Positions 9,059 to 57,100 of a stretch of DNA of 64,000 nucleotides are shown one piece after another. The translations under genes and the position numbers were made by a program. A model generated the notes under the pieces. That model saw only the letters and a program-made list of their open reading frames with translations. It was not told the origin of the DNA and did no database searches. Every line of letters begins with the position of its first letter. Position 1 is the stretch's first letter. Source of the DNA: Haliclystus octoradiatus (Eukaryota > Cnidaria > Staurozoa > Stauromedusae > Haliclystidae); the NCBI GenBank assembly GCA_916610825.1, contig OU744451.1:11968864-12032863 (forward strand). The letters run 5' to 3'.

Positions 9059-9060
9059 TA

Positions 9061-11078
9061 GTGATACGCGTGAGTGATATTTCCTTGCATGCTTTTGCTG
9101 ACGCAAGCAAAGATGCTATAGGAGTGGTTTTGTATGTGCGTGTTGTTTCTCTTTCAAAAGTTTTTTGCAGCTTCCTTTTCGCCAGATCTCGTTGTGCGCC
9201 GCTAAAGTCGATCACAATACCAAGGTTGGAGCTTTCTGCTGCTGTCCTAGCAGTGAAGACCGAAAGTCAAATTTTTATTGAATTAGATTTGCCTATCAAT
9301 GATGTGTTTTATTGGACAGACTCTATGACCACCTTAGCATATATCAGAAATGCTACAAGACGGTTTCCTACCTTTGTGGCGAATAGAGTGAGTTATATTG
9401 TAGACCAATCTAATCGATCTCAATGGAAATTCTGTCCAGGTATATTAAATCCTGCCGACATAGCTTCGCGTGGAATTTCACCCACTGCTTTTGTTCAGTC
9501 AGTTTGGACTGAAGGACCTAAATTTTTATCTTGTGTGGAATCTGAATGGCCTAAACAGCCTAATGATCCTGACTGGTCCACTCTTGAAATATTAAAATCT
9601 AGTTGTGTTGCATCGGCAACCATAAAGCTGAATTGTGTGCTTGACATGATCATGAATCGATCTCATTCGTTTCTAAAAGCATCTCGAATCCTAGCTAGAA
9701 TTCGGCAATTCATAAACCTCTGTAGGACTAAAGGTTCTAAAACTATTAATAAAACTACCTCTAGTTTGCTTTGTCTTAGCATGGAAAATATTATGCATGC
9801 CGAGTTAGAATTGATTATATACCATCAACAAGCAAGATGTTCTGATGAGACTTTCTCTCTAAAAAACAATAATATCCTGCCCTTGAGCAGTACTATCTTG
9901 TCGTTTTGCCCTTTTCTCGATGACGATAACATATTGCGAGTAGGTGGCCGCCTTGAAAACGCTGCTGTTTCATACGACCAAAAGCACCCGATTATTGTCG
10001 CTAAAGGCTCACTGTTGTCTCAGATGATCATCAACGACGCTCATCACCATTTGAAGCACACTGGTGTCAACTGCATTGTGACATTCATCCGACAGAAGTT
10101 TTGGATTCCTTCTCTTGTAATGCAGGTAAGAAACAAAAGTAAGAAGTGTATTGTGTGCCGCAAGCTGTATGCAAAGGGTATGCACCAACTCATGGCTTCT
10201 TTGCCCACGGATAGACTAAAAACTACTCACCCATTTGACATTACTGGGGTTGATTATTTTGGTCCTTTCTATGTTAGAGTTCTCCGAAGCACTGTTAAGT
10301 TTTGGGGATGAATCTTTACATGCATGTCAGTATGTGCTGTCCATTTAGAGATTTCACCCGGTTTAGATACGGACAGCTTCATTTGCGTATTTAGAAGATT
10401 TATTAGTCGTAGGGGTAATCCCTCTAAAATCATATCTGATAATGGAACTAATTTTGTTGGCGCTCAGGCCGAGCTCAAATATTTCGTCCAATCTTTGGAC
10501 CATGCAAGTGTGTCTCAGTTTTTGTCACAGGCTGGTATCGATTGGAAGTTCAATCCACCTAGCGCACCTCACCATGGCGGAGCTTGGGAACGTCTAATCC
10601 GAATTGTGAAAAATTGTCTCACCGCAACCATTGGAAACCGTGTGTTAAACCAAGATACTCTTCATACCACCATTGTCGAGATTGAAGCAATCCTCAACCG
10701 TCGCCCGTTGACCACTGTCAGTGATGATCCATCGGATCTAAAACCATTGTGTCCAATGGATTTACTACACCTTGGTACTGATGTCCTATACACCACGAAG
10801 TTTGACAACATCAATCTCCGTGAGAAATATAAGAAGTCACAAACCTTGTTGAAGGTTTTTTGGTCTTGTTGGTCATCCGAGTATTTATCACTCTTACAAC
10901 AAAGACAGAAATGGGCACGTAAGACCCCCACATTGAACATTGATGATTTAGTACTAATAATTGATGATGACATTGTGTCCAATTATCGCCTTGGGCGAGT
11001 CATTGAACTATTTAACGGAGCAGATGGCCTTCCTAGATCTGTTCTACTGAAAACTGCTGGTAGTCAGTTAAAAAGACC
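9061..11078 (+). pseudogene. BEL RNase H and integrase, first copy
   Basis: RNase H begins with LHAFADASKDAIG (catalytic D, about 9085-9125) and continues through FYWTDSMT. The integrase has an HHCC zinc domain (HHHLKHTG .. CIVCRKL, about 10040-10165), the first catalytic D in DITGVDYFGPF (about 10237), and, after an in-frame TGA at 10309-10311, SDNGTNFVGA (second D, about 10435-10465) and the HHGGAWERLIR block with the catalytic E (about 10570-10600). Frame 9061-10311 has no ATG at its start because it follows a frameshift. From about 9743 to 11078 it is duplicated in tandem immediately downstream. Confidence 0.88.
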
Positions 11079-12415
11079 TCTATTAATAAAACTACCTCTA
11101 GTTTGCTTTGTCTTAGCATGGAAAATATTATGCATGCCGAGTTAGAATTGATTATATACCATCAACAAGCAAGATGTTCTGATGAGACTTTCTCTCTAAA
11201 AAACAATAATATCCTGCCCTTGAGCAGTACTATCTTGTCGTTTTGCCCTTTTCTCGATGACGATAACATATTGCGAGTAGGTGGCCGCCTTGAAAACGCT
11301 GCTGTTTCATACGACCAAAAGCACCCGATTATTGTCGCTAAAGGCTCACTGTTGTCTCAGATGATCATCAACGACGCTCATCACCATTTGAAGCACACTG
11401 GTGTCAACTGCATTGTGACATTCATCCGACAGAAGTTTTGGATTCCTTCTCTTGTAATGCAGGTAAGAAACAAAAGTAAGAAGTGTATTGTGTGCCGCAA
11501 GCTGTATGCAAAGGGTATGCACCAACTCATGGCTTCTTTGCCCACGGATAGACTAAAAACTACTCACCCATTTGACATTACTGGGGTTGATTATTTTGGT
11601 CCTTTCTATGTTAGAGTTCTCCGAAGCACTGTTAAGTTTTGGGGATGAATCTTTACATGCATGTCAGTATGTGCTGTCCATTTAGAGATTTCACCCGGTT
11701 TAGATACGGACAGCTTCATTTGCGTATTTAGAAGATTTATTAGTCGTAGGGGTAATCCCTCTAAAATCATATCTGATAATGGAACTAATTTTGTTGGCGC
11801 TCAGGCCGAGCTCAAATATTTCGTCCAATCTTTGGACCATGCAAGTGTGTCTCAGTTTTTGTCACAGGCTGGTATCGATTGGAAGTTCAATCCACCTAGC
11901 GCACCTCACCATGGCGGAGCTTGGGAACGTCTAATCCGAATTGTGAAAAATTGTCTCACCGCAACCATTGGAAACCGTGTGTTAAACCAAGATACTCTTC
12001 ATACCACCATTGTCGAGATTGAAGCAATCCTCAACCGTCGCCCGTTGACCACTGTCAGTGATGATCCATCGGATCTAAAACCATTGTGTCCAATGGATTT
12101 ACTACACCTTGGTACTGATGTCCTATACACCACGAAGTTTGACAACATCAATCTCCGTGAGAAATATAAGAAGTCACAAACCTTGTTGAAGGTTTTTTGG
12201 TCTTGTTGGTCATCCGAGTATTTATCACTCTTACAACAAAGACAAAAATGGGCACGTAAGACCCCCACATTGAACATTGATGATTTAGTACTAATAATTG
12301 ATGATGACATTGTGTCCAATTATCGCCTTGGGCGAGTCATTGAACTATTTAACGGAGCAGATGGCCTTCCTAGATCTGTTCTACTGAAAACTGCTGGTAG
12401 TCAGTTAAAAAGACC
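9743..12415 (+). repeat. Tandem duplication, two 1337-bp units
   Basis: Unit 1 is 9743-11079 and unit 2 is 11080-12416. The junctions are CTATTAATAAAACTACC at the start and AGTTAAAAAGACC at the end. The units are almost identical and share the TGA stop, so the duplication is younger than the nonsense mutation, or it is an assembly artefact. Confidence 0.9.
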
Positions 12416-12458
12416 AATAACTAAACTCTGTCTATTAGAGGCAGCTTCTATTGATTAA
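11080..12458 (+). pseudogene. BEL integrase, second tandem copy and true C-terminus
   Basis: This repeats 9743-11078 at an offset of 1337 bp and then runs into unique 3' sequence ending at TAA 12456-12458. It includes the HHCC zinc domain, the three catalytic acidic residues of integrase and the C-terminal SH3-like part (LVLIIDDDIVSNYRLGRV). The same TGA interrupts it (11646-11648). I saw a single base difference from the first copy: A at 12244 against G at 10907. Confidence 0.88.
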
Positions 12459-24100: not shown

Positions 24101-27100
24101 TTTCGAAAGGCGATCCTTCAAAAATGGAAACAGCCGTACTGGTACGCCTAAAAAAGCAGTTGGAATATACGCCGTACTTTAGTGAGGCGTACCATTTCTC
24201 AAAAGGTTGAACTTGGAATGTTTTGGTCATTTCCAGGGGGTTTCTGTTTGAATTTCTTATTGTTTCCTGCCTGTTGCTAAGTAACCTGTAGTGTCATGTG
24301 ACTTGTGTACATTACGGGCTAGATCCCAGTCTTGTAATATGCTTTGTGTTTATGTTCATCTCTGCTATGATACGGTTATACGATTACCTTCTATATATAT
24401 TGTGTTATTATTACGTCTCCAACATGGCGCAGTTGATATCTAATGAATGAACCTCGGAGATATTATTAATAACATCCAATAATTTGGTTGATGATAGATG
24501 ATTTGTTGATTCAACAGCTGTGCTCGTCTTCGCAAACAATTTTCGTGAGCCCAACGACAACGATTGGACCACATCCGCTGTTTGGATCGTTCGCAGTTAT
24601 ATTGCACGAAGCAACAGTTGTTTTAATAACCATTATATCAACTAGAAGATCAGCTTAACAATTAAGTAACAAAATCCTTGTGTACTACACGATTGTTGCG
24701 CCTCAATAATTGACATTGAAAACTTTCGGTAACACAACTAGCCGCCATTATGCACAAAGCCACGCGGTCTAATCCAGCCTCGGACGAAAATGAAAGAGAG
24801 GCTGCGGACTCAGCGGACTCAGCGGACTTGCAAAATGATCCGCAAATTGTAGCAAATCCGCAGAACATTCCGCAAGCACAAGCAGCAATGGACCCAATGC
24901 AGCAAACAATGCAGATGATGATTCAGATGTTAGCCAATCAACAACAACAACACCTGGACTTGCAGCATCAACTCCAAGAGCAACGAAAGGCTAGCCTGGA
25001 CCAACAGCATCAAATTGCAGAAACATTACGTCATCAAAATGAAGCCATTGCTCTAATGAATGATACTACTCAAAAAAATCGTTCTCATGCTGACGCAATT
25101 GGCACTTCCATCACTAGCAATGTCGATACAAGTCACCAAACGCCACATAGTGTTGCAAAAAAAATGGACACACCATACTTGAAGATATCACCAGAAGAGA
25201 CAACTTTAGCAGCCTTTCGTACATGGCAGAAGAGTTTCAAGGGCTATGCTGAACTTACACGTTTACAAGAAGACTGCTCATTGAGAGGTAGACAGCAAAT
25301 TATTCGTAGTGCTCTCCATGAAGACTGGGTTCGACTATGGGACAATGGTATGCTTTCTATTAGAGAAGATGAAGATGATATTGGAGCTGTCCTAAAGCAC
25401 ATTTGTACATACATCAGGAAGCAGCGGAACCCTCTTTTAGATAGACAAGAATTCTATTCCCGTGCACAACAGGAGGGTGAGTCAGTCGATAGTTATATGG
25501 CTGCCTTGCGCACCATAGATGACTCATGTGGATACTCAGATGACTTGGTATGCAAAACTTGTAACACTGCTTGTCATCATTCACTGGCCTATAAAGATGA
25601 GAGGCTTAGGGACCGCCTTGTATGTGGTATTAAGGATGCAGCTACACAGCAAAAGCTGCTAGAAGAACCTTTTAACAGTCTTACCTTAGATAGATCATTA
25701 GCCATTTGCCGGACACATGAGGCAAGTCAGAAAACACATGATCGTCTCAATTACAGATCAGACTCTCATAGTACAATCAGCTTTGTATCTAGAGAGGGAA
25801 ATGGCAAGTCTGCATATAGGCGTGGTAAACAAACAAAAAAGCCAAATGCCAGCAGTACTACTTCCCCCAACGCACAGCTCTGCAGGAATTGTGGTAAAGG
25901 ACCCCATTTGACCCCAGACCTATGTCCAGCTAAGGATGTTGAATGTTTCAATTGCAACAAAAGAGGACATTACCGTTCAGAATGCCGGTCAATCAAATCT
26001 GACACCAAGGCACAAAATTGTGTACTCTTAACTAACCCCCTTAAGGTGGGAACAGTCACAAAAGTTAGAAAAGACACCCTCCCTCTGGCCACAAGTCATT
26101 TCACCCGTTATAATCCAACCATGATGTGGTTACCTGATCCCGGGGCGTTCTGCGATGCTATGAGTGGGGATGATTTGGCCGCATTTGGCGGCAAAGGGAA
26201 GTTTGTATTGAAAGAAGATACCGACCATCTGATCAGCGCAGACGGGAAGACTCTGACGAGCTACGGGAAAGCTAACATGACATTGCGACGTGGTGGACAC
26301 TCTTATGATGCAGTTGTCCATATAGTGGAAGGTTGTAGTTTACCGTTATTGAGCAAAGCAGGATGTATTGCTTTAGGTCTACTCCCTCCTGAATGGCCCC
26401 ATATTGAAGAGTCTGTAAAGTCCCCTACCTACAATACCCTGAACGCATTGTCTCTTGGGAAAAATACTGAAATATCCCCCAATATCAAGGAGTCGGAGCC
26501 TATTGTTGCAACACAGAAGCAGCGGATTTTATCAGATTTCTCTGATATCTTCCCTATCAGTGATGATGCTCCTTTGAAAGCTATGACTAGTCCTGAAATG
26601 GTTATCCAACTCACTCCAGAGGCCAAACCAGTGCGACGCTATAAAGACTATAGCATCCTCTTCACTGGGAAGATACGGTGAAGAATAAATTAATTGAAAT
26701 GACTTCCAAGGGAATCATCAAGAATGTACCAATTGGTGAAACCCCTGATTGGCAGCATCCAATGGTAGTCGTCGCAAAGAAAGGAGCAAGTGAACCACGT
26801 ATCACAGTAGATTTTACGTAATTGAACCCATATGTAAAAAGACCAGGTTATGCTACGAAAGTTCCACGAGAGGAAGTTGCAAAGATGAAGTATTTCACCA
26901 CACTGGATGCTTGCCATGGTTATTGGCAGGTACCCTTGGCCAAAGAATCACGCCCACTGACAACCTTCTTCACACCATGGGGCTCTAAGCGCTTTTGCCG
27001 TAATGCTATGGGTCTTTTGTGTGCAAGGGATGAACACAATAGAAGAGGGGATGACGCTATCAAAGGAATTAGCAATGTCCTGAAAGTGGTTGAGGACTAC

Positions 27101-30100
27101 ATCATTTTTGATTCCGATTTGGCCACACACGAAGAACGAGTTCGCTCAATCCTGCAGTGTTTTAGCGAAGCAGGTATAACACTTGGCAGGAAGAAGTTTG
27201 TCTATGCTGAGGAAAGGGTACAGTGGTGTGGTTATGTCATCGATGGCAGTGGGTATTCGGTGAATCCAGAATTGGTTGATGCACTAGGTAAATTCCCCAT
27301 CCCTCAAACTTGCACTGATCTGCGATCTTTCTGTGGACTGGTCCAGCAGTTTGAGGCATTCACAGCCGACATTGCTGAGCTGATGCAGCCACTCCGAGCA
27401 CTTTTGTCCCCCAGTTCCACTTTTGTTTGGGAAGGACATCAACAGAAAGCATTTGATGAAGTTATTGCGATGCTTTCAAATCCTAGAAAGTTGGCGCAAT
27501 TCATCCCAGGTTCGAAGCTAAGATTGGAAATGGATGCAGCGCAGTCACAGGGGCTTGGATTTGCATTTTGGCAGCAACATAATGATAATACATGGCATCT
27601 TCTGCAGTGTGGTTCGAGGTTTGTGACACCCACGGAGTCAAATTACTCAGCGACAGAAATTGAGTTATTAGCTGTTGTTTGGGCAATCCAAAAATGCCGT
27701 CTGTTCCTACTTGGGTCGCATTTTGCAGTTCTGGTCGATCACAAGCCACTGGAGGCGATCCTGAATTACAAAACCTTGGATAGCATTGATACACCACGCA
27801 TTATTCGACTGAAAGAAAAGTTATCGAGTTATAATTTCACGGCAGTATGGCGTCCTGGAACACAGCATGTGGTGGTGGACTGTCTCTCTCGCAACCCAGT
27901 CAATCAACCTGAAGAAGATGATCTCGCTGGTGAAATTGAAATTGAAGCATTCGCCTCCTTTGCTCTTTGTTCGGTTCTACTACCAAGTCATCAAGCAACA
28001 AATCCAGATATCATCCTGGATAAAGTCCGTGCTGCAGGTGATAACGACAAGCAATATTGTAAACTCCGCGATGCCATTCCTCACCAACCAGGTCATACAG
28101 CCTGGAAAGACAACATTTTGCAAGACTTCAAAATATTCCACAAAGGCCTGTCAGTGGTGGACAACATAGTTCTTTTTCAGCAACATCGTCTCTTTATCCC
28201 AAGTGCAATACGACAGGAGACATTGCAACACCTACACGCATCTCACCAAGGAAGAGTTCGCACACTACGACGTGCTCGTGAATGCATCTTCTGGCCTGGC
28301 CTAACAAAAGACATATCGAACCTGGTGCAAAATTGCTAACCTTGCCAAGAAAATCGTGCCAGCCTATGCAAAGAAACTCTTCACTCTGACATTCCCCCAA
28401 CTCGTCCTGGTGAGGCAATTGCCACGGATCTGTTTTCTTTCGCTGGTCGGGAGTACTTGATCATCACAGATAAGTACTCCGGTTGGAAAGAGGTGTACAA
28501 CTTTGGTAGCAATGGTGCAAATACAGATCATGTGGCACATTTCATCTTACAATGGGCCAGAATGATGGGTCTGCCAGCAAGACTAACGAGTGATGGAGGA
28601 CCACCTTTCCAAAGCAGAGAGTTTGCCAAATATTGCTTGGAATAGAGCACACTACATGATCCATCCTCTCCATATCACCCGAAAGCCAATGGACATGCTG
28701 AAGCTGCAGTTAAGGTCATGAAGGCCTTGATGACGAAGGTCAGCCCACGTGGTGCATTAGATACACCTGCATTCACAGATGCCATCATCGAGCTGAGGAA
28801 CACACCTTCCGCAGATGGAATAAGCCCGGCTGTTCGTTTATTTGGCAGGCCGTTAAGATCTAGGCTACCAACACATCCTCTGGTTTTTCAGCGCTCTGTG
28901 ATGAAGCTTGTCCAAGAAGCAGATGAAAAAGCAGTCAAGCTTAGAGCAAAAGCAAAAATCCAATATGATTCAACGGCGAAAGATCTATCACATTTGGAAG
29001 ATGGTGATGTTGTCCGAGTTCAAAATCCTACATCAAAAAAATGGCAGTTAGTAGGAGAAATCGTCAAGGTATACCCAAGACAGAGAAGTTACCTGATCAA
29101 ATCAGAGACTGGTCGCCTGTATTGGAGAAACAGACGATTCCTTCGACCATTCAGCAACCCTGAAGAGCCAGAGGAAGAAGACGCCCAGATTTTGAAAGAT
29201 GAAGATCAGCCATCTCCAATCGACGAAGATGAAGATAGTGGTCACATCCAACAGATGAAGCCCAGACGCAGCAGCCGGGTCCGCCACCCACCACAGCGTT
29301 ACACTCGCTGAAGAAGAGGCATGTAGTGTCATGTGACTTGTGTACATTACGGGCTAGATCCCAGTCTTGTAATATGCTTTGTGTTTATGTTCATCTCTGC
29401 TATGATACGGTTATACGATTACCTTCTATATATATTGTGTTATTATTACGTCTCCAACATAACCGTGATTAGTAATCGTATCACAACAATAGCGGTGGTG
29501 TAATATTGTTTTTGATCACTTTAAATATGAAAAATATATTAAATATGAAGACAATATAATCTTGAACATCGTGTTTGTAAACCAAATATATTTTAGTAGT
29601 TTTATAAAACGTGTATGTCAACAAATATTAATTTGCAGTAAAATCTTTGAAGATTTCGAAATAAAAAGTCTGCCTATTATGGATTCTCAAAACAGAATGT
29701 CACAGCTCTTCTCACAGGAAGCGGTAAAGTTCAGACAAAAATCAACTGGTACGCCACTTTTGGAACGGCGTATAATCCCACTTTTGTAATTTTTGTGTTT
29801 GGTCGGCTTGGTACGGCGTACCAAAAAAAGTTGGTACGGCTCTCAAAAGTACGGAGTATAACCTAGGGGTAAGAGTTTGTTGAAAATAGAATGTTACAAG
29901 TAAACAAAGATGTGAAAATTGAGCCTCATAGTGCTTCTTGTTATCAAATTTTCAAGAATGGGAGCTTAAACATTCTTTCAAAATGAAATAAAATTCTATA
30001 ATAAATTGCAATACTAATTCGATATTGATATTATGTTACATCTTGTTGTCAACATTTCTACGCGCTATTTATAATACCTTACAGATATAGAATGAAAGAA

Positions 30101-36100: not shown

Positions 36101-39100
36101 TCAGAGCAGTATGATGATATGTGAATGAATGTATGAGATGTGCTTGACGCTGAGGTCAGAGAAGTATGATGATATGACATAATTGCACGAAAGCAGATCT
36201 AAGCCTTACATGCCCAGTTGAATATGTGATCCTGTGACCTACTTAATATCTATTCCCAGGCCACTACCGTGACTGACATGTCATGTCAATCACCTGTATA
36301 CATGCATATTGTACTACTAACTACTTGCTAAAATGAATCTTTAATTGTTATAAAACGGAAAGTGATTCTCTTGTGATCCTTAGAGAGGTTGACAGATCAT
36401 TATACAATTTGGTCCAAGAGAAAGAAAAAGATTTTCTGGCATAGGCCTATTCTGTTTCTATTTTTTGTAATACAATGGAATTTCTGCATTTATGGATGAT
36501 TTAAATCATGCAAATGAAACTTGAAATAATTAATAAAAGTAGGTAATACTTTTTCATTTATACATGTGCGCAAACAAGTTTGCATGCACAAAATTTTTTT
36601 GACAATATAACAGACAGTAACTTTTAAATGTAAAGTTAGAAAAGTTAAAAAATCATCTATGATGTAGCAAATCATATTTTTGTGTTACTGTTATTTAGTT
36701 TTGCTTGAATTCCAATCATGATTTATGAAATAATAAGGAAATAGAACATTGTTGAGCAGACAACCAGATTACTGAACATCGAATAATATACTATTCATAT
36801 ACTAAAGGTTAAACAATCAGACACAACAATTGAAGTATCAACTATGGAATAGTAACCAAGGTCAACCAATAACAAAATGTGGTGAACCTAGTAGTATAAT
36901 GTATATATTATATTTTAATAATAATAATATATGGCGATAGAGTTTATATTATTATATTATTATATATATTATATATTATTATTATTATTATTATTATATT
37001 ATTATTATTATTTACCGCTCTGTCAAATGAAGACATAGAGCCCTATATTATCTGCTATTAGATAAACATAAATTTTATTATATTAGCCTATATTTTATAA
37101 GCACATGAAAAGTGATTTGATTTATGATTGAGTGAAAACAAATGATTATATCAGCCATGTGAAAATAAGCTTGTTTACAAATACTGTTGTGATGATGATG
37201 ATGATGATGATGATGATTGATGACTCACCGCATGTGATAATACCACTTTTCAAATCATTGTAGGATTTTTCACAAGACAAGACATTTTCTTGGATTGCAA
37301 TCACCTCTGGTTCGTCAATTAACTTTGTTAAATAATCAGGATATACAACAGGGATTGAGTATTTTCTTGCTCTTTCACATTTGAATGAATTATCAGCAAT
37401 ATCTTTATCACCGGCAACAACATAGGAAGTCTAAAACAAAGCATCATGCTGCAATCCATGAATAAGAACATTTGGTCAAGTTAGCAGGATCGGGTAATCA
37501 GGTTAAAATCAAATACATAGGATTTGAATAGATTTGAATAGATTGCCTAGTGATCGCGTAGGCGTGAAACACAGAGAAATCAAACACGATTGTCTGATCT
37601 CTGACTACCGGTAGTATATTTTAGAAATTATTCAAAACTCAGCTGTAATAGCATTGATCCCTATGCTCAATCAGTAAGACAACTTACATTACATATATAA
37701 ATATAGCCTAGGATTATAAACTCACATGGAACAAACATTTACAAAATTTAGAAAGACCTGCTTTAGACTGTTTTCAAGAGTGAAAGAAATTTTATTTTAT
37801 TAAGTTAACTTTTATACTATAAATTATTAAGTTAACTTTTATACTATAAATAATAAATTTATTTCTAATTTATGACTTAAGCTTACTAAGATACCTAATT
37901 GTAAGCCAAAATAAATCAAAATTTTTGTTTCATAAGATAGAATAAGAAATTGACTTAAAATAATTTAGATCGTATTGAATCTGATTGACCATTTAGGCTT
38001 GGTTGTAAGTCCCCAATGAATAGCATCTCATATACGAGACAGTCCCATATGGATCTGCAATGTTTTAAAACTTTAAAATCATCGACTACATCGTCTGTTG
38101 TTTGATTGTGTTGTTGTTATACTATGCCGATGACACTATTGCCATAGCAACAAACAATGACGAAGCTAATCGATTTCTCGACATTTTGAATCAAATCCAT
38201 CTATCTATTACTTTCATCATGGAGACACAAAGAAACAATAAATTTCCCTTTCTTGGATTACTTTTAGAATGCAATGGAGAATTTATTGCATTTTCTAGGA
38301 AACTGGCCTATATATACTTTTATGTTATCTACTTTATCTTCGTATTTTGCTATGTTATGAAAGAATACTGTACCTGTATTAGATGTAAATACATCAGATT
38401 CTGTTCAAACCTGATCACTTCATGGTTTAGGCATGAAATAGGTTAACATACAAATTAAATGTCAATCTACTTTATGAATCACAAATCAAAGTACAAGCTG
38501 TGCATTATTTTTGAACTTCTAGCAGTTAAATGTTTTTTCATTTTCAAATTTCACCCAGCGAAGCAAGTACACCTCACTAGACTAATCACATTTAAGATAA
38601 TTGTGTAACTGATTATATAGTCCGCCGGCCCACTTCTAAAGTCTTCAAAGAATACAAACTTAAGTTACCGGAATTTCTCCTAGGAAGATGTTTTGAAATA
38701 ATTGTGATTAAAGTGATAAATAATTTGATATTTTACCTGATACATATGTTTTTATGCTGCAGAAGGTTATCAATTCACGCCATAAACTTTGTGTTTTTTC
38801 GAAGGCAAATCGGCCTTCTCCATTTTGAAAATTGAAATTTACCGCCCTTCCATGCGCTCGTTCCAGTACTTTTCGTTCGCGTTACTATGGTTTCGACTAC
38901 TAACAATATGGCAGCTTGATATTCGATACGTCTTGATATTTGATATTTGACCTTTGTAATTTGTTACGAAATAAAAATTATCGCGAAGGGCAGGTTGATC
39001 ATGCATTATGTTTAGTTGTTTTTTGGCTAAACAGTTATTCTTATATTCATAAAGAGTTATATATTATGATATATGTTAGAAATGAATTGAATTGAATATG

Positions 39101-42100
39101 GAAAATGTAGAGAATCTGATTGAATCTGAGTTATCTAGTGGTAACATTGAAGACAACAACAGTGCAGAAGGTAAGAACACTTTGGCTTTATCCAATCGTT
39201 TGTCAGGTTTTGACTGTAGAAAACATCAATTTAAAGTCTTAATAAATTGTAGATGAGAGGTCAGAATTGACCACCAAAGCTGCAAAAGTACGTATTCCTG
39301 GTATAAAGACAAAAAGACTCAGTTGGAATGGATGTCTTTGTGATTGCACCGAAAAAATAAATACTCCAGAATTCAGAGGTAAACATATGTTGATCAGGTT
39401 TAAGGTCAAAACGTTACTGCAAAAATAATTATCTGCATATTAAAATTTCCGATAACTATGAATTGGAAATTTTTGCATAAATATAGGCCAATATAGATAT
39501 ATTTATTTTCAATTCATTTCATGTGAAAATGTGACTATTCAATTGCAAATTATATACGGGTGCCGAAGGGATATATACATTAATTACAAGATCGACCACT
39601 TTAGACGGTCCATAACCTCTAGCAATTTATAATTATTCCATCTTATGAGTTTTAATTTATAGCCCCCCCCCCCTAGGGCCGGATCTGGAACAACTTGAAA
39701 CTATAATTCAACTGAATTATCTGACTCAATCTACCAGACCGCTAGCAATGTCAATTATTTTTCAAAATAAATATTTGATTATTTAATTCTTGTATGTTCG
39801 GTATAACTTGAAATTAATCTGCTTATCTAACTTATGCTACCTAAAATTTATTGAAAAAATATTCAAGTTAATTAATTTATTCTATCCGGTGTAGATCTAC
39901 GTCAATTTCATGAACAGAGTTGGAGTACATTCATAATTGCCGCTAAAAAGCAGAATGATAAAATTTGGAAATTTGTCGAACCTGCCAGTATTGGAAAGCC
40001 TAAAGGATATTACCACCGTCGATGCTTCCAAAGATATGTTCAAAAACGAGTCATAGAAACATTGGCCGAACAAGATGAAGCAGATCAGGCTTCTGAAATG
40101 GAATTGTCGGGAAGTGATTCAGACCATGAAGTTCCTTCCAAAAGATCTTCCCGCCAGAGCACCAAAAGAATTGATAAATCAAAATGTATATTTTGTCAAG
40201 GTTAGTAATCCGGCTATAATAATAATATTTTATATAATATAGCGCTATTTCAATAAAAATATCCAATAGCGCTTTTAAATATATACAATTAAAAATGGTA
40301 AAAAGGGATATAAAAATAAATTGTATTTATTGGCTATGGTAGTATAATCCTTAAATATAATCGGACGATATATGATATATATACAGGCTCTCCTTCAAAT
40401 GACATGAACGTGAATTATATGTATGTCTTTATAGATGAAAAGAAAAGAAAAGTACCCAAAAGTTCAAGAAAAATCGTTGAGCCACTTACAAGATGCACAG
40501 GTAGTGCAAATGCCACAGCTGGAGAATCCAAATTAATATATGTTGCAAAGCTTCGAAAGGACCACGATCTTTTGAGGGAGCTGGAAGGTGGGCCAGCGGT
40601 AGATCCGATAGCAGGTGATACCCTGTATCACAACTCCTGTTATTCTAACTACACACACAAAAAAGCTGTAGATAAACTTTTGTCTGAGCAAAGTGGGGTA
40701 TGTGAGAAAGTTATTCACATCGACTCCTATACCGAGGCATTTACCCAAATTGAACCAATATTAAACGAAATAACGGAAGGTCAGAAAATTATGTCATTGA
40801 CAAATTTGCGTAAATTATACATTGAAGAACTCTCGGCAATTAATGGCTGTGATTCATCAATATCGTATAGATCCGAACGTTTGAAAAAAAGGATCTTAAG
40901 CCGCTTTGACAATCGTATCGAATTTTTCCAACCAAAAGATCGAAGAAAATCCCAAATTCTATTTGCGTCAGATATCCAACGCACAAAACTTCTCTCTTTT
41001 TTTGAAGCAGCTTCATACGAAAGTATAGCTAATGGTGACGGTGAAGAGAATGAGGAGACCAGTGACATTGATCAATTTTCTCTCAGATTAGGTGGTACTG
41101 TATCAGCCGAACAAGAAGCAATGAAAATAATTTTTGAATCCGCATCAGTCATTAGGGCCACCATTCTGAAATCTAACTTCACCTCTGTTTGGCCAAATTT
41201 AGGTAGTGACCTAATCAGCAATTCTGATTCTTTGCCAATTATTCTATACAATTTTTTTTCCTGGGTTATACATGGAGTCGAAAAAACTTCAGAATTCACA
41301 ATGGAAAGAATAATCTTAGAAAAAAAACTTGAAGTGAGAGTTAATTCTATTGCGTCTGATTTACTGTTTGCTACGTCTCAGAGTCGCAAAGTCTCACCAA
41401 AACATATTTTATTGGCTACTACTATCCACCATTTGACTAGAAGTGAAAAAATTATCACAATATTAAACAGAATGGGGCATTGTATTGCTATGTCTCAGGT
41501 GCATGAAATCAACACAAAATTAGCTGAACAGCAATTGAACCATCTAGAAAAAAATACGTATCTACCCACCACCGTTTCATTCGGTCCTTGGACAACATTT
41601 TGTTGGGATAACAATGACCTATGTGAAGAAACCCAGACTGGATCAGGTACGTTCCATTGCACTATGGGCATTGTTATCCAACGCCGTACCTTTGGGCCCC
41701 AAGGGTTTGTAGAACAAACAAAGCGTTCAAGGAGGAGGTCCTTACAGAGGGCTTTTCCACCTGTTCTCCCTTTCATCCCTGAAAAAAAAGTAAATTCTAA
41801 CTCTGAGAATTCAATTTTTGATTACGAAGCAAAATCTTTGTCTTATGAAAGCTTGCAATTAGTCCCTTTCAAAATAGATCTTCTTTGGCTTATTTGCCGT
41901 TATGTCGAATCCCTGCAGGTCCCTAAGACCAATAGAATTCCTTCATGGTCCGGCTTTAATTCGATAATCAGCAAACCTAAAATCAAAAGCAAGGTCAGTT
42001 ATTGTCCTGTAATTAATGCTCCGCCGACACACCTTGATACAGTCTATACCCTTATGGTTAGATCTGTTTCAATGGCTTCTGCACTAGGGCAACCCAATAC

Positions 42101-45100
42101 CGTTATTGTCATGGACCAGGCTGTTTATGCCAAGGCAGTAGAAGTGAAGTGGAAGTGCCCTGGAGAGTTCAAGTCTGTTGTTTTGCGTCTAGGAGGGTTC
42201 CACGTTGCTTGCACCCTGTTGGCTATTATAGGAGTTAGATTTAAAAACAGTGGACTATTTGAGGTAATGATTGAGTCCGGAATTCTTGCCCCCGGTTCTC
42301 TTAATGGTGTTGTTTCTGGCAAGCATTACAACAGGAGTTTAAGGTGCCATAAATACGTTGCAGAAGCAATGTGCAGACTGATGTTCGAAGAGGTTGATTC
42401 TGGTGAGGAGGTGTATATTAACAGCGATGGAGTAAAAGACAATATTTTTACTCCACTTTTAAACGGCAATAACGATCCTCTTGTTAACGACGTTGAAAGA
42501 AACGATACATTAATTCGCTTAATGACGATTTTGGGCAAACTCAAAAAGTTTGAATCTCCTGTTTCAAAAATGTGGTTATCTTATGTTGATATTGTTTTTT
42601 TACTTTTGAGATTCATCAGAGCCACTAGAAGCGGAGATTGGAAGCTCCATTTGGCATGTGTTCATGACATGTTGCCTTGGTGCTTTGCGTATGACAGACC
42701 CAATTATTCTAGATACATGAGCCTTTATTGGTTTGAAATGGCCCAACTAAATGAAACACATCCAGCTGCGGCACAAGCCTTTGAAGATGGTGAGTTTTGT
42801 GTCCAGAGGTCACCGCATTCTTTTTCTCAGGTACCCGTTGACCAAACAATTGAACAGACCCTCAACAGGCAATCAAAAACACCAGGTGGAATCGTTGGTA
42901 TCAGTTACAATGATGCTGCAGTACAACGATGGACTCTGACAGCTCATGAAAGAGCTTCATTGTCAAGTCAATGCTGTGAGCTAGTAAATCTGTTTGATGC
43001 CGATGAAGACGGGCACAAAGATTGTCGGCAAAAGGTGAAGGAGAGAGACGAGGGTTGTATTCAGAGTGTTATTGGTGCTATTAAATCATGGTCCAATCCC
43101 TTTAAAGGACAAGATGACAATCAGAAGATTTACAATATCGCCTCCGGGGTAGTTGCTCCTTTGAACGTTCAGAAAAGTATGGATCAAGCTAAGGAAATTG
43201 GTATGAAGCAATTTCAATCATTTATTAGAGATAGATTAGTCAATTCTAATGTTAATTTTAACGAACCAATCCGTAAAAATAAATTGCTAACTTTTACATC
43301 CATAATTGCTAAAAGAAAAACAAAATTAGGATCAAAGGAAATTCTTTTAAAGGCTGATGTCGCCTTGTTCGCACGATTTGCAGCTCTTGCTCAATCAAGA
43401 TCTATGAACCTCAAAGATGTCATGTCTTACCCACTAGGGCCGTTGCCATGGTCACTGTCAAATCCGGATGGTACCATGTGCAAAACGGATAAATCCTCGA
43501 TCATTAAAACCCTAGAAGAATCGTTCCCTTGTTCCATTGTTTCACAGCCAGAAAAAGCTATATTTATTATAGATGGAATGGCTTTACTACAAAGTTTTCC
43601 TGGCCTCGGTCGTTCCGCATTATTTAAGGATTATGCTTTGGCGATTCTAAAATCTATTCTTAGAAAACAACATCAGACCTCTAAGAGAATCGATGTTGTT
43701 TTTGATACTTACCCAGATGATTCCATAAAAACTAGTGAACGAGCGAGGAGAAGTGGAGAATGCAAGATTGTGATAAGAATAGGCAATGGTGATCAAAAAG
43801 GACCCCATAGCTGGACAAATTTTTTAAAAGTCAGCGAGAATAAATGTAACTTAGTCAATTTTTTAATCACTGAATGGCAGAACTCTTCGTACTCTAATGT
43901 TATTGGTTTCAATATTTTGTATGCAACTTCAGGTTCTCGTTGTTGGCAATTGTCTTCTTTAAATGGGAACGTTTCTTGTCTCCCTGTTGAATGCCTTGCC
44001 AGCAGCCATGAAGAGGCTGATACCCGTTTATTTTTACATGCTAAACATGCTGCGATGTCTGATGCTGATTGCAATACAATCATAATTGAATCACCTGACA
44101 CTGATGTTGCAGTTATCGGCATCAGCGTAGCACAGCATTTCCAGTGTCAATTATTATTCAAGCATGGCATCAAGCATCGTATGCAGTTCTTAGATCTTAC
44201 TTTAATATCAAGCTCTCTGAATGAAAAAGCCGAAGGACTTATAGGGATGCATGCTTTGAGTGGGTGTGACTCTGTAAGCTCCTTCAAAGGGAAAGGGAAA
44301 AAAACAGCTCTGAAATTATTTTTTGATGGTAAATTTGATAATTTATTCTCTACCTTGGGCACCCAATTCTCTTCTATTCCTTTGATTGATGATTGCGAAG
44401 AGTTTGTTTGCGCTCTTTACGGAAAGTTTAATATTAAATCTGTGAACGAAGCTCGCTATCAATTGTTTTGCACAAAAAACTGCCAAAGTGCACAGCTTCC
44501 ACCATGTCGAAGTACACTTGAATTACATCTTGAACGAGCTAACTATCAAGCGGCCGTATGGAGAAGATGTCTGGTAGCGAACCCCACAATCCCTAGTCCG
44601 ATTGGGCACGGATGGGAAAAGGAAGAAAACATAATTGATATTCTATGGCTAAAAGATCAACCAGCTCCACGTGAACTCCTGGCATTAATTTCTTGTGGTT
44701 GCAAAAAAGACTGTTCAACTAATGCCTGCTCATGTCGATCAAGTGCATTAATGTGCACCGATGTATGTGGGTGTAGTCTTAATTCAGCTTGCATAAACAG
44801 AAAAATCAATGATACCGCCGACACTGAAGATTTACCATCAGAAGGAGACGATGACAATTCATCTGATAGCGAATAATTACGTTATAGTTTCCATCCTCGT
44901 TTTATTTGCTTCGTTTAATTTTAAACTGTTACCGCAAGTAATTTTCTTATTGGAGAGATTTTTACTGCTGTCCGAATTTTACAAAGACGTTTAATAAATA
45001 CAAAGTGTATAAGTATTATATTTTACACACTGCATTTTTTGTATCTCGTTTTTTATAGTAATGTATATATAGCTAATATCAAAGCATGCATATACTGTAT

Positions 45101-48100
45101 GGCCAGTATTTTTATAGTCAATCAAATTTAACGTAGCATGCTATATCTTTTTTACCGACCATTTACTGAAATGGTATGTGTCTTGTGATGACATTGCCTG
45201 ATTTTTTGTATCTCGTTTTTTATAGTAATATATATATAGCTAATATCAAAGCATGCATATACTGTATGGCCAGTATTTTTATAGTCAATCAAATTTAACG
45301 TAGCATGCTATATCTTTTTTACCGACCATTTACTGAAATGGTATGTGTCTTGTGATGACATTGCCTGATTTTTTGTATCTCGTTTTTTATAGTAATATAT
45401 ATATAGCTAATATCAAAGCATGCATATACTGTATGGCCAGTATTTTTATTGTCAATCAAATTTAACGTAGCATGCTATATCTTTTTTACCGACCATTTAC
45501 TGAAATGGTATGTGTCTTGTGATGACATTGCCTGATTTTTTGTATCTCGTTTTTTAAAGTAATATATATATAGCTAATATCAAAGCATGCATATACTGTA
45601 TGGCCAGTATTTTTATAGTCAATCAAATTTAACGTAGCATGCTATATCTTTTTTACCGACCATTTACTGAAATGGTATGTGTCTTGTGATGACATTGCCT
45701 GATTTTTTGTATCTCGTTTTTTATAGTAATTTATATATAGCTAATATCAAAGCATGCATATACTGTATGGCCAGTATTTTTATAGTCAATCAAATTTAAC
45801 GTAGTATGCTATATCTTTTTTACCGACCATTTACTGAAATGGTATGTGTCTTGTGATGACATTGCCTGATTTTTTGTATCTCGTTTTTTATAGTAATATA
45901 TATATATAGCTAATATCAAAGCATGCATATACTGTATGGCCAGTATTTTTATAGTCAATCAAATTTAACGTAGCATGCTATATCTTTTTTACCGACCATT
46001 TACTAAAATGGTATGTGTCTTGTGATGACATTGCCTAATTATAAATTACTACTATTATATAATAATAAGATAACTACTTTCTATGCATTCGTACACTGCA
46101 TATTGAAAATAGTTTTATAGTCAGTTAAAATTGATACTGCATCCTTTGTATTAATTAGACTATTAATGATGAATAGGGTGTCTCTAATTATGGTGCATTT
46201 TTATTTTGTATACTACCTATACATTTGAATATACCGTTATCACGAATCATTATAATAAAGTATTTCAAGTATTATAGTTATTCCTAAATAGATACTTTCG
46301 ATACATGAATAATATTAACATTCTATTTTCAATCAAGAAAGTCTATGGATGAAGACTGCAGACTTGTTATCACAGTCACATTACAAGACTCGTGAATAAT
46401 ACATCGGTAATAATTGAACAACATTTATGGCCTATAAAGTATATATATTCTCATAATCATCCAGAATGGATTATCATTCTATAATTATGTTACGATTTAC
46501 CATACGGCAAATGCGAACAATAATTTGAACATTTTCAACTTAATCATTTATCTAATTATTTTATGTAAATAATGTTGAACAACTGCATATCTTGCTACGT
46601 GGCCAATACACATTATCGGTCTGTTTACTTCTTTTACAAGTCATTATTCGTTTGTATTTGTACTAACTTTGCCAAACATTTATGCTTTCAAGCGGCTAAT
46701 AATTAAATGATTCAAGAAAAATGATGTTAAATTTGTAGTTTTTCATGTTCTTTCGGATAAAGATGTAGTGATGTATTCAAATTAGAATGCGATACTTTTC
46801 AAGTTGGGAAGAAGGACCGAAATTGATAAGAAAAGTTAGATCAAAACAAAGATCTGCCATATTGTTTATAGTCAAAACCATAGCAACAGAACGAAAAGTA
46901 CTGGATCGAGCGCGTCCAAGGATCGGAAAATTCAATTTCAAAATGGAGATTGCACATTTTACTTTCAATTTCTTAATACAAACCGTAGACAGATTTAGTA
47001 ACCTTCTGCTTCACCCAAACATGTCTAACAGGTAAAATAATATATTTCATATGTTTTTATTTTCAAATATCTAAAAAAATCTTCCTCGGACGGATGTAGG
47101 TAACTTGAGTTTCGTCAAATAGCTATTGGCCGGCGGACTAATACAGAGATATGTGCACAATTCATTGTGATGACACCTTAGCGCGAAGGAGTCCTGGTAA
47201 CGAGTAGAATGTAAAATTTGAAAAGAAACCTTCGCGCATACAGGTCTGTTGAGGCATAGATTATAGAATACAGGGGGTTGGCAACTAAGGTCTGGGCACG
47301 AAATATGTTTTTGTTTGAGATTTTCCGGAAACACGTGATCTTCACCAGAAACAGAATTTCGTCAAGTGAAATTTTTTCAAGTGTCATTACAGCAATGCGG
47401 TCAACTGTTCTACTCATTTTATCATCGTTCATATCTTTAAGCTGGCTAGTAAAAATACACTTGATTATTCCATTATTTTAAATGGGTGGTCAATTAAATA
47501 GCAACGGTTTTCAGTACTTCGAATTTCTTAAACGTGGAAGGCAACGAAGAAAATGGTGAATCAATCGATGAAAGTTCAGAAGAGCGCGCCTACAGAAAAG
47601 TTAACGTTGTGCAATTGCTAAAGGATTTGCAAATCAGAAGGCGGTTTAACGGTATCGGTAGCCCTTCACACACAATCAAAACACACTGATATAAAATTGT
47701 CCATCGATGAAGATGAAGGTAAGTTCACGGGAAAATGAATCTGCTCTTCTCAAAAGTTACTACGAATGAGTTATTTCCTCAGACAAATCTGGAGATTATG
47801 AGTCAAATATATTCAACAATTTTTGTCTATTCCCTACAAATCTGCTCGTTAGTAATAAAAACATCTATCTGAAATTCATTACGTGGATGAGCACCTTCGG
47901 AAAGTTTATTTAGTATCGTTGTGGAAGTGTGAAAATAATTTCGTAATTAATCATAAGGACATCAGATGAACTCTTGAAGCAAACAAACTTTGAATGTTTT
48001 GCAAAAGCCAAACGTTTAATCTACCTGGGATGTAGCAGTACAACACTCTGGTTTAGAAGATAACAATACTGATGAAATTATTTGTATTTGTCTACAAAGT

Positions 48101-51100: not shown

Positions 51101-54100
51101 AATATATAATCTTATTCTACGCATGCGCTGCTGTATATTACACAGTTGTTAACATTTATGATCATAATAGAGTTCACAGTTATTGAAGCAGGTTGTGTTC
51201 TTTGTGTGTTACTATTATCATAAGACATGGTGTCAGATGTGGGATAACTACTCTATTTTGGTATATTAACAAACCGTCTGATATACTGAGCTCTCCTTTG
51301 GCTAAAGCATACGGTTTTAAATCATTATTAATATTTTCGGTTAAAGGCCAGTTAGTATTAATATAATAAATCACTTTCTGTAATACTTGATCCTTCGCTG
51401 TCTCCTCCCTTAAACTTGATAATCTTTTAGAACTAATGGGTAAGGAAGACATTACATAATCAACATATGCTTCCACCTCCAATGCTTGTGATTTTTCAAT
51501 ATCTGATGGTATAATTATACTTCTCGATAAAGCATCGGCAATAACTAATTCTTTTCCAGGTACATGACGTACTCTAGGATTAAATCTCATTAACCTCATT
51601 AATAATCTTTGGCAACGTATAGGGCATTTATCTAAATCTTTCGTAGTCATCAAGGGTACTAAAGGTTTGTGATCCGTTAATAGTTCGAAATCGTTTAAAC
51701 CAATTAAATACTTGGAAAATTTCTCACATGCCCAAACACTAGCAAGACACTCCTTCTCAATTTGTGAGTATCTCTTCTCAGCATCTGTTAACCTTCTTGA
51801 ACAGAATGCAACAGGCATTAGACCATCGTCGTGTCTTTGTAGAAGTACTCCACCAAGACCGTAAGAACTGGCATCTGCACTAACAATGATATCTTTGTGA
51901 ACATCATAGTATTGTAATGATGGAAGTTTTAATATTAAATCCTTTACTTTAGCAAACGCTTCATTTTGCACTGGTCCCCAGTACCAGCTAATATTTTTCT
52001 TCAGTAAATCACTTAACGGCGACAATACACTGGACAACTCTGGTATAAATCTTGCTAAATAATTAAACATACCAAGCACAGTTCTTAATTCAGATACACA
52101 TGTTGGTATTGGTAGATCTCTTAAAGCTTGTAATTTATTTGGGTGCGGCTTAATTCCTGCCCCACTTATTAAATGTCCAAAATAAACGATTTCTGATTTA
52201 TTTATTTGACATTTTTCACGATTTAATTTTAAACATGATATTCGGACACGCTCATAAACAGCTTCTAAATGTTCATCATGCTCTTTTTGTGTTTTGCCAT
52301 ATACAATTATGTCATCCATTATTACATCACATCCTGGTAACCCCTCTAGCAACGCTTGCATTTTCTTTTGAAATATTTCAGGGGCGCTAGTAATACCCAT
52401 TGGAATACGTTTAAAACAATAACGACCAAATGGAGTTATAAAAGTAGTTAATAGTTTACTCTTATTATCTAGCGGAATTTGATAATATCCACCTGATGCA
52501 TCTAGGGCTCTAAAATGTCTTGCATCAACTAATTTAGGAGTAATATCATCTAAATTAGGTAGCATTAAGTGTTCTCTTTTAACATTTGAATTTAGATGTT
52601 TATAGTCAACACAAATTCTTACCATTCCATTCTTTTTCTTAACAGGAACCATTGGAGCGCACCAATCAGTAGGAATATCAACTTTTTCAATAATACCATT
52701 GTTTTCCATTCTATTGATTTCGTCTTTAACCATCTCCATTAACGGAAATGCAATTCTCCTTGGCGTAGCCAAACAATATGGTTCTATATTTGCTTTTAAT
52801 ACAATGTTTACAGGAGCAGTATCCATTAAACCATGGCTATCAAATATTTCTGTTTCGTCTAATCGTGCAATTAATCCCAAATTTATACATGCTTCTCGGC
52901 TTAGTAAATTATTCTTGGGACCATCACATACGTAAATTTTTACTTGCGATCTCTTGCCATTTTTATGTAAAGTGGTAGTAAATAAGCCTTTTACAGATAC
53001 ATCTCCCCCTGGTGACATTAACTTCATCTTAGATTGTGATAATGTTGGTTTCACTTTTAACAAATCAAATGAACTTATTCCACATGATAGTAAAAACTAC
53101 ATTTTAGAAAAATTGCATGAAAGTCATTTGGGGATTACTAAATGTAGAAATAATGCTAAAAACACGGTGTGGTGGCCAGGTATTTCAAAAGATATTAATG
53201 ACACTGTTACCAGATGTAAGAAGTGCCAACAGAAACGACCGAGTCAGAAGAAAGAGCCACTAAATCCTACTCCTTTACCTTCCAGATCGTGGGAGAAAAT
53301 CGGTACAGATTTATTTGAATGGAATAAAAAGACATGTTGTTGTAGCTGATTATTACTCGCGATGGATTGAACTTAAACAATTAACAGCCACTCGTACAGC
53401 CAATGTGGTTGCAGCATTAAAATCTATCTTCGCCATAAATGGAATTCCTGATGAAGTTGTAAGTGACAATGGACCTCAATTTTCATCGGATGAATTTGAA
53501 GAGTTTGAAACCAACTATGGATTTTGGCACAATCCTTCAGCACCATATAACCCACAAGCAAACGGGGAAGCTGAAAGATCAGTCCAAACAGCAAAGAAAA
53601 TATTAGATAATGATGACGTAAATATTGCATTACTACTATACCGTACAACTCCGCATTCAGCAACTGGAGTTAGCCCATCAATTGCGCTAATGGGTCGGCA
53701 ATTACAGAATAAGTTACCATCAATTAATAGAAATTTGATGCCTGTCAATCCAAATGACAAAGATATTAGAAGAAAAGATAATGAGTCTAAAAGAAAGAAT
53801 AAAACTTATTATGATAAACGTCATGGAACAAAAGATTTACCACAATTAAAAATTAATGACGATGTCAGAGTTAAATTGGATCATGAAAAAGGTTGGAAAA
53901 AAATTGGCAAAATTATTCATTGTAATTATGATAGAAGATCGTATACAGTTAAAACGACTGATGGTTCGGAATATATACGTAATAGACGTCATTTACAATT
54001 TATACCAATTTCTGATCACGATGATAATAATGTTATTAGTTTTGAATTAGATGACGAAGATGAATCTGATAATCCGATCGTAGCAAATATTCCGATCGTA

Positions 54101-57100
54101 AATGAAAATCCTCCGGAAAGGAGAAGTGAACGTTCTACAAAGCGCCCAGATTATTATGGATATAATAAGTAAATAAACCGATATGGTCTTGATTAATTTA
54201 ATATTTATTATAATGTTTTCTTGTTGATTATTATTAGTATCATAGATTATTTAGCTTGAAACAATTTATACTTATCTTAACTTTATAGAAAGGGAGGTGT
54301 CGTAATATGTAATTACGTAGTACTAATATATAATCTTATTCTACGCATGCGCTGCTGTATATTACACAGTTATTAACATTTATGATCATAATAGAGTTCA
54401 CAGTTATTGAAGCTGGTTGTGTTCTTTGTGTGTTACTATTATCATAAGACAACATTGTTGATAATGACTGACCCCTTATAACGAAGTCCGATTTGGGAAA
54501 TTCATCAACTTTATCACACTGTATTAATAGGCCTACACCTTCACAATTTAACTCATGGCTTTGCTCAATGAGATTTAGTTGAAGGACTCTGATACTGCTA
54601 CTTCATATTCCAATTTTGTGCTGAAGATCTTATAGGTGTATGTTTTACTTATCAACTAAATATAAAGTACATATTAGTCTGAACAGTGTCACATATTTCA
54701 GAAAGTAAAAAAGTAAAAATGGTAATGACATATGTTGTTATTGCCGAATTAGCTCTAGCCTCATTCCATTATGGCCCTCAACTCTACGCAGACACGATGA
54801 GGGCCTAATAAAATTCAGCTAGCAAACTGATGCGTTCATAATGGCTGTCAAGCAGGAAAAATCTACATGGCCAAGCACAGAGCGGTATTTTATCACATGG
54901 GATTCAATCGTATGACATTTTTTTTGAGTTTTTACACACGCTGAACAAATTTGGCTATAACATCCACAAGCACAATTATATCTAATTAGTTTATATTCAG
55001 TGAAAAGTCACTAGCAACAATTTCGAAATTTTACTATAATTATTATTACAATAAAATTTCAAAATTGTTGCTATTGACTTTGTCATTGAAACTAATAAGT
55101 AATCGACTTCTTATACAAATAGTTTATATTCACCATCCCAGTAATCAGATATTTTTATTGGTGCTGCTTGTGCGTAAATATTGCGGATCTTCGATATCTA
55201 TTTGAAAATGTACAAACGCTGTGCGATTTTGGTCGCGACAGCCACAAGTATCAAAGTTTAGCCTATATATAATCTATCAGCCCGTAATTAGACATTATTT
55301 ATTGGTGCATTCGTGGTAAATATTGTGGAGTCTAGATATTGATTTTATTTTGGAATAAAATAAAGTATACCAACGTTGTTCAATTTTGACAGCGGCAGCC
55401 ACAAAAGATTACTATCGAAGACTCCTCACATCTCGCCTTATTGAACCGTTAAGATTTACCCATGGTTTGCCAAATTAAATTAGAAATTCCTCGTAAATGT
55501 TGCTCAATATTGTGTGCAGGGTCCACCAAACTATTTTGCCTTCCGGAAACCTGGATTTATATTCAAAAATCTTCTGAAACTTTTTACCGAAATACTGAAA
55601 ACCCATTGAAACATCAACACTTTCCAATTTCGTGATATGATGGTAACACGGAGAATTTTGAAGAAAATATTCTAGCAATAGGTCTTGGCTTTCATCCAAA
55701 ATGTTTCTTTTGCAATCCTTGACAAATGACAATTTTGACATTGAAAATAATAAAAAAACAGTTTCTGGGTAAATTGATTAGCTTTCTCTGTAAAAAAATG
55801 TTTTGCATTTGTTGTTTTTCTGAGATCAGGTAAGTCAAGTGTGAACTGTGTGATCATACATGGGAGGTATTGACAAAGGTGTCTCTTCTCTGGTCACAAC
55901 TTTGCAAGGAACAATTAACTTTGAAAAGAATCAGACATTTTATTGTTAACATTTGAATGGCGGTCGTATTTTACTTATAGGCCTATTTTACTTCGGTGGC
56001 ATTCAAATGAGAAAATTATTCAAAATAAGATAAAAATAGCAATTAAAGGAGACAAAGGTTCACAATATACTCTTCAAGCATGATTGAAAACAAATTACAT
56101 CTTCAGGAAAATCGTTTTTCAAATTCATTTCCGAAAGATAACAAATTAAAATTGAAAGGAAATGTCGATTTTCTTCAGAATTTCGTCTAGCCTTCCGGAA
56201 ACCTAGTTGCTGGGTTGCCGGGCTTTGTCGGACACTGATTGTGTGTATGGAATTAAATCAAAGATATTCTTCTAGTTTTCCCTCGTTCATGCTTGAAGAC
56301 TGAAGTTCAGGCATGAGAATTGACATTTCAAAAATAGTCTGAAATCTACAATATCTTGATATATTTCAATGGAATTTAATGGATAAAAGCAATAACTACA
56401 GTTTCACAACGCCCAAAATAGTCTGAACCGCTAAAAGTCGGAAAATTCTCATGTCGGGAAGTTAGATTAAATTAATAAATTTTCCGTATTGAAGTTTTTT
56501 GTTTATTTGCAAAACATAAAATTTGAAACCCTGAACGCAAAAAAACTTCCTTTGCTTTCTGGAAGTATAAGAGCCAATCATCATTGAGTTTATGCCCACC
56601 ACAGAGCGCTCTGCTCTGTGATTGGCCAGATAGATTTTTCCTGCCTGAGCTATTTTGAACGCATCACTTCGCTAGCTGAATTTTATTAGGCCCTCATCGG
56701 AGCGTCTGCGTGTAGTTGAGGGCTGTTATGGAATGAGGCTAAATTAGCTCAGGCAGACATTATTAAGGGAACGTGAAATAATAAATAAATAAAAACTTAA
56801 CACATAATTGGTTACTGCAGAATGTTTTAATGAAGAAATTCTGAACACACAATAGCTTCTAACATCCAATATTTTACCACAGAATTTTGTTAACACAGAA
56901 AAAACGAAGTTCGGCATTAACAAATTAGCTGTGTTAAAAAGTTTGGTGCTACTGTATAGCCGATAATCATTTACTATCTACACACGCATGGGCAAAGGAT
57001 GCAAGGAACATTATTGTTTGAGAACAGCTTTCCGGCAGCCGAAACAATATCCACCACAATTTTTCAATGGAGACAAAAACATGAAAGGTTGTCAAACTTT

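Follow-up and report, generated by a model that had tools for sequence, protein, structure and literature searches.

Positions 38618-47140 of a 64-kb window from Haliclystus octoradiatus (contig OU744451.1 of assembly GCA_916610825.1; all coordinates are positions in this window) form a single 8,523-bp unit, which is very probably a cut-and-paste DNA transposon that is autonomous, was mobile recently, and belongs to the AcademX type of the Academ superfamily. The unit has defined ends, and members of its family are flanked by target site duplications (TSDs) of 3-4 bp. It is present in multiple young copies, its predicted gene is intact, and empty sites are found for some of the insertions.

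The ends of the element are inverted repeats. The sequence TAGTCCGCCGGCC is found at 38618-38630 on the plus strand and at 47128-47140 on the minus strand, which gives 13 bp of perfect inverted ends. Even with up to two mismatches allowed, the 64-kb window has just these two matches, versus 0.12 expected (two or more matches arose in 1 of 100 shuffles), so a chance inverted repeat is ruled out. Behind the 13 bp, the arms are imperfect and extend to about 290 bp in all, with complementarity of 71% (121 nt), 80% (55 nt), and 88% (34 nt). The trinucleotide ATA flanks both ends (Table 1). Six tandem 167-bp units lie between the gene and the 3' end. (Copy L014 has four units, two fewer than the other seven copies.) In the older relative L022, one stretch matches several of the units at about 80%, so the array probably grew recently, inside the transposon.

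We then searched the 262-Mb genome for other copies, scoring all 21 candidates for each end. The 297-bp 5' end is present in full at eight places on five contigs (seven are exact and L014 has one substitution), and the 287-bp 3' end is present in full, at 100% identity, at seven places. (The eight copies do not include L018-L022, which are older, degraded, or partial relatives.) In all seven copies with both ends readable, a TSD lies directly outside the ends: ATA, TAG, TTAA, TGT, TAA, TTG, and TAT. (L016 was omitted from this count because its 3' end is unreadable.) These TSDs are 3 bp in six copies and 4 bp in one, and each is different. Copies with the same ends and differing short TSDs are what an earlier note, made from the sequence of the window, had expected of a transposon. 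That note had described 13 bp of perfect and about 290 bp of imperfect inverted repeats, an ATA duplication, and an uninterrupted four-exon gene within one 8.5-kb unit, and had argued for a transposon instead of a host gene. All of this held up.

The copies are young. When the tandem array is set aside, 4-24 substitutions separate the window copy from each of the seven others, which agrees with the earlier suggestion of recent activity. Across all pairs the range is 2-28, and in a younger group (L010, L013, L015, and L016) it is 2-7. In four of the eight copies, the reading frame is complete and the splice signals are retained; the gene is broken by frame changes in L011, L012, and L017 and by a stop codon in L016. 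We counted 33 nonsynonymous and 12 synonymous coding events that were distinct (73% nonsynonymous), versus 75% in a neutral simulation in which transitions were set to half of all changes. The differences look neutral, as if the copies had drifted after insertion. L011 and L012, which are otherwise separate copies, share a 1-bp change in the length of a T-run within the transposase gene. This could reflect mobilization of a broken copy in trans, frequent length changes of the run, or misassembly.

Related families have the same kind of ends. A tblastn search with the window protein gave 39 listed matches (from the best 31 of 544 candidates). A search with the L024 protein gave 37 (from the best 31 of 479), including at least eight places at 99-100% identity over the entire protein or nearly so, six of eight of them free of stop codons. 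We examined four further families, as pairs of copies. Three of them have related proteins, both ends clear (TAG...CTA), and 3-4-bp TSDs (AGG, TAAA, CAC, TTT, GTA, and TAG). The family with the end TAGTGGGGGAGC is 6.36 kb long and its two copies are 99.95% identical; the copies with the end TAGTAGGGGAGCC are 6.6-6.7 kb and those with TAGACCGGGAGCC are 6.6 and 7.4 kb. Past the TAG, the termini differ from family to family. Overall, all 13 copies from the four families have TSDs, of 3 bp in 11 copies and 4 bp in two. As a control, mismatched pairs of left and right flanks shared at least 3 bp in just 6 of 156 cases. In the remaining family (L160 and L161), the protein is a 35-36% relative, the two copies are 99.8% identical, and both have the 5' end TAGTCAGGACGC. 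A matching 3' end was not found in either copy, and the family is not among the 13. By eye, there is a possible GGT duplication in one of these copies and none in the other.

We also looked for unoccupied sites. For each of the 13 insertions (seven from the window family and six from the three related families), we joined 110 bp of left flank to 110 bp of right flank, kept one TSD, and searched the genome; the best 40 of 600 candidates were scored and 78 matches were listed. Forty of these span the whole joined site, unbroken, at 99-100% identity (23 for L011, 8 for L015, 8 for L157, and 1 for L156). So, there are empty sites for at least four of the 13 insertions: at least two of seven in the window family and both in one related family. 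Because the joined sites match unbroken at such high identity, we conclude that these four insertions lie in repeats with surviving unoccupied relatives, and that their ends and TSDs are exact. The other 38 matches are 82-87% identical and lie inside the tandemly repeated surroundings of L011. For the other nine insertions, including the window copy, no empty site is among the best 40 of 600 candidates, which carries no weight against them.

Next, the predicted gene. An open reading frame at 40404-44876 runs for 1,490 codons without a stop. Four predicted exons (Table 1) join in frame to give a coding sequence of 4,947 bases, or 1,648 amino acids. All three introns are GT-AG; the splicing is a prediction from sequence. 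The same genome has a related protein, L026, that reads in one frame across the position of the join between exons 3 and 4, which supports that join. The alignment to L026 begins just 3-4 residues ahead of the join between exons 2 and 3, so that join is marginally supported. Exon 1 is predicted from the frame and the splice signals alone. A cysteine-rich stretch near the C terminus, which we call CXC-like as a presumptive name, had no match in a Pfam search.

The central part of the protein is a candidate DDE-type catalytic region. Aspartates at 41607 and 42114 and a glutamate at 42852 are each conserved in all six alignment rows that cover them, and this triad suggests a DDD/E transposase. 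DUF6589 matches weakly in five of seven rows (best E = 2.8e-4). As a separate observation, a DxxH sits right at the catalytic glutamate motif in the rows for L024, L025, and L027, which belong to the related families; the window row has none there.

Following the DDE region is a stretch that resembles FEN1/XPG-type nucleases. It has acidic residues at 43572, 43704, 44010/44013/44019, 44097/44103, and 44268, and then a GKGKKTA stretch. The aspartate of IDG, the aspartate of FDTYPDDSIK...RARR, and EEAD are conserved throughout the seven rows. DTD is kept in six of seven (the frame of L026 stops there, and its second piece carries DTD), and GCD is kept in all five rows that cover it. For comparison, we assembled archaeal FEN1 proteins: at least 80 loci were listed from 119 matched stretches, 79 contain the motif within a frame no shorter than 200 amino acids, and the 69 that were long enough were used. 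With hhalign, the seven-row profile matched FEN1 with a score of 41.7 (P = 9.4e-5) over 98 columns around GCD. A 15-row profile scored 36.4 (P = 5.6e-4), with 268 columns collinear and the acidic motifs in register. For ten control archaeal families, the best scores were 19.6 (seven-row) and 23.0 (15-row), with best P values of 0.22 and 0.067. As another control, the DDE profile compared to FEN1 gave P = 0.54. A profile match above all ten controls, along with collinear acidic motifs, points to a remote XPG-type nuclease. As in FEN1, XPG, and Rad2, the acidic motifs have the same order and there is a GCD...GKGKKTA stretch; we assume that the acidic residues have the corresponding roles. Unlike those nucleases, the window region is very distant, is fused C-terminal to a DDE region, has long insertions, and is known from sequence alone.

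Why do we assign the element to AcademX? The Academ superfamily and the AcademX lineage are reportedly to be credited to Kapitonov and Jurka (2010) and Kojima (2020). According to the accessible part of one study, the TSD is 3 or 4 bp for AcademX and 9 or 10 bp for AcademH, and this difference is related to the presence of a nuclease or a helicase (PMC10045372). Our element shares with AcademX a nuclease-bearing DDE protein, terminal inverted repeats, and a TSD of 3 or 4 bp (all 13 copies, four families). The earlier note's Academ and XPG labels thus fit that description, and the nuclease region is remotely supported by the comparison to 69 archaeal FEN1 proteins. AcademH belongs to the same superfamily but differs by its helicase and its 9-10-bp TSD (PMC10045372, accessible part); we rejected it because the TSDs here are 3-4 bp and the matches listed for the window protein include no helicase. 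For the relative L028, DEAD and ResIII are among the matches but score far under the Pfam cut-offs.

Several results weigh against this assignment. The DUF6589 matches score at most 19.2 bits, versus a Pfam cut-off of 27, and the window's own row has no DUF6589 match. The window protein has no Pfam family at the cut-off; its lone match, to Glyco_hydro_2_N, looks like chance (E = 0.072, 13.5 bits versus 28). Against solved structures, the DDE profile has no match up to E = 10, the window protein has no significant match up to E = 1, and the nuclease profile has no significant match either (the best, at E = 0.42, is adenylate-cyclase-like). YacP, which we take to be a PIN-like protein, follows at E = 0.49, and we count neither match as evidence. 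The hhalign probabilities for FEN1 are modest (59% and 30%), and relaxed settings weaken the match to P = 0.0036 and a probability of 9%. The profiles are shallow (6 effective rows of 7 and 12 of 15), and the control families have 6-16 members compared to 69 for FEN1. A scan of the whole genome with Pfam's XPG_I found three places, none of them within the listed copies of the element, so the relation to XPG is remote. Finally, the name Academ is given by features: the element was set beside the named Academ elements by description.

This weak signal in Pfam and in the structure libraries, and an Academ label given by features, would also be expected if the element belonged to another superfamily with 3-4-bp TSDs, such as Harbinger, Zator, Sola, or Kolobok, and had a nuclease-like region by chance. 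(Harbinger, Zator, and Sola make duplications of 3-4 bp.) But the Pfam searches listed no match to a family that is named as a transposase, and a nuclease together with a 3-4-bp TSD is the AcademX combination, as far as the available text goes (PMC10045372), so we consider another superfamily quite improbable. Kolobok in particular is described, in the available part of one paper, by a TTAA duplication, 5'-RR termini, and a C/DxxH between the second aspartate and the glutamate (PMC9587614). We rejected it: just one of the 13 TSDs is TTAA, the termini are TAG, and none of the seven rows has C/DxxH between the second aspartate and the glutamate motif. A gene domesticated by the host, or a host locus that is present once and bears inverted repeats by chance, would explain the long, clean coding frame with its predicted exons, but for the entire window family this is contradicted by the eight near-identical copies, which lie on five contigs, TSDs that differ between copies, a neutral pattern of substitution, and the empty sites; we give this idea almost no credence. 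Another concern is that the family no longer moves itself, or is moved in trans by another family; the window copy itself may no longer jump. Half of the copies have broken genes, two of these share the T-run frameshift (which could be recurrence or an assembly error), and the genome has other families with open frames. But because the termini beyond TAG differ between families and four of eight copies are intact, the window family is plausibly able to provide its own protein, and we judge such a loss of autonomy to be unlikely. An autonomous AcademX transposon is our preferred reading.

As far as a comparison by description shows, this is a new family, very young and intact, of a known superfamily. 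It is longer, at 8.5 kb with its internal 167-bp array, than the mean of 5,565 bp for 100 curated Academ elements from bivalves, as given in the accessible part of that report (PMC10294476). In the available text on mutation-accumulation lines of Daphnia magna, Academ-1 was active, with one gain and no losses (PMC8594854); it shares the superfamily label with the window element. These two reports imply that the Academ kind is known and is not rare, and the earlier note's statement that such elements are sparsely described was overstated, given 100 consensus elements from one bivalve study. Also, the Daphnia insertion means that Academ activity in animals is already in print.

How might the protein work? 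The 1,648-amino-acid protein would bind the inverted ends via its N-terminal Cys/His motifs, its C-terminal cysteine-rich motif, or both. The DDE region would cleave the 3' ends and join them to target DNA with a stagger of 3-4 bp. The fused FEN/XPG-type nuclease may then cut or trim the 5' strands (the donor flaps), giving a simple insertion, and host repair would fill the stagger to produce the TSD. We infer the trimming step by analogy with Tn7, in which TnsA is the nuclease and TnsB is the DDE transposase: there, one strand is cut by the DDE enzyme and the other by a separate nuclease. Unlike our element, Tn7 is bacterial, its nuclease is unrelated, and its proteins are separate. That a currently mobile Academ element uses its fused nuclease to cut 5' flaps after strand transfer by the DDE region, with one polypeptide doing the work of two Tn7 enzymes, is a tentative idea and on balance a doubtful one. 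If true, a single polypeptide would cover Tn7's division of labor. Such a route, by nicking, pasting, and trimming, would have no precedent among animal transposons that we know of.

In the searchable literature, which largely leaves out subscription papers and was seen in part, most accounts of Academ elements are catalogues made from sequence, and we found neither a transposition assay nor an account of the role of the XPG-type domain. A genome like this, where several families are very young and where open frames, defined ends, and empty sites are all known, is natural starting material. It could be used to ask if transposition needs the nuclease domain and which of the strand cuts depends on it.

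Table 1. Features of the transposon in the window.
Feature	Positions	Strand	Basis
Left TSD, ATA	38615..38617	.	Flank comparison of copies
5' terminal inverted repeat (13 bp perfect, then imperfect)	38618..38914	+	Complementarity, copy search, shuffles
Predicted exon 1, start codon	39098..39170	+	Frame, GT-AG borders
Predicted exon 2, first Cys pair of the N-terminal Cys/His motif (Cys at 39333)	39253..39378	+	Frame, GT-AG, motif table
Predicted exon 3, with a His (40014) and the second Cys pair (from 40185)	39895..40200	+	Frame, motif table, L026
Predicted exon 4, bulk of the putative transposase	40435..44876	+	Open reading frame, frame, GT-AG
Putative DDE-type catalytic region	41454..43118	+	Alignment of relatives, motif table
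FEN1/XPG-like nuclease region	43401..44561	+	hhalign versus archaeal FEN1, motif table
C-terminal cysteine-rich stretch	44694..44790	+	Open reading frame, motif table
167-bp tandem array, 6 units	45034..46040	.	Repeat search, copy alignment
3' terminal inverted repeat	46854..47140	-	Complementarity, copy search
Right TSD, ATA	47141..47143	.	Flank comparison of copies

Scans of viral contigs at the protein and alignment levels, and an alignment scan of genome contigs, found no relative of the element; a presumed host XPG fragment also had no relative in the viral contigs. One viral-contig match (L009) was taken as a chance hit, as its open reading frames look, by inspection, like the genome of a single-stranded RNA phage.

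The window holds other mobile elements. Close by the transposon, on its left, a short frame at 38102-38446 has a YADD reverse transcriptase motif and no match in a Pfam search; we presume that it resembles Penelope-type elements. Positions 24750-29311 are similar to a long terminal repeat (LTR) retrotransposon, presumably Gypsy, with G+C above that of the surroundings. A further LTR-retrotransposon-like element, which we also take to be Gypsy, is at 51180-54172; its frame for reverse transcriptase/RNase H is read from the minus strand and the adjoining integrase frame from the plus strand, as an internal inversion would produce. A BEL/Pao-type retrotransposon at 5718-12458 has DUF1759, Peptidase_A17, and an integrase zinc motif. 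Part of it is also directly duplicated within the element: the last part of the frame at 9061-10311 and the first part of the frame at 10324-11145 recur in the frames at 11103-11648 and 11661-12458.

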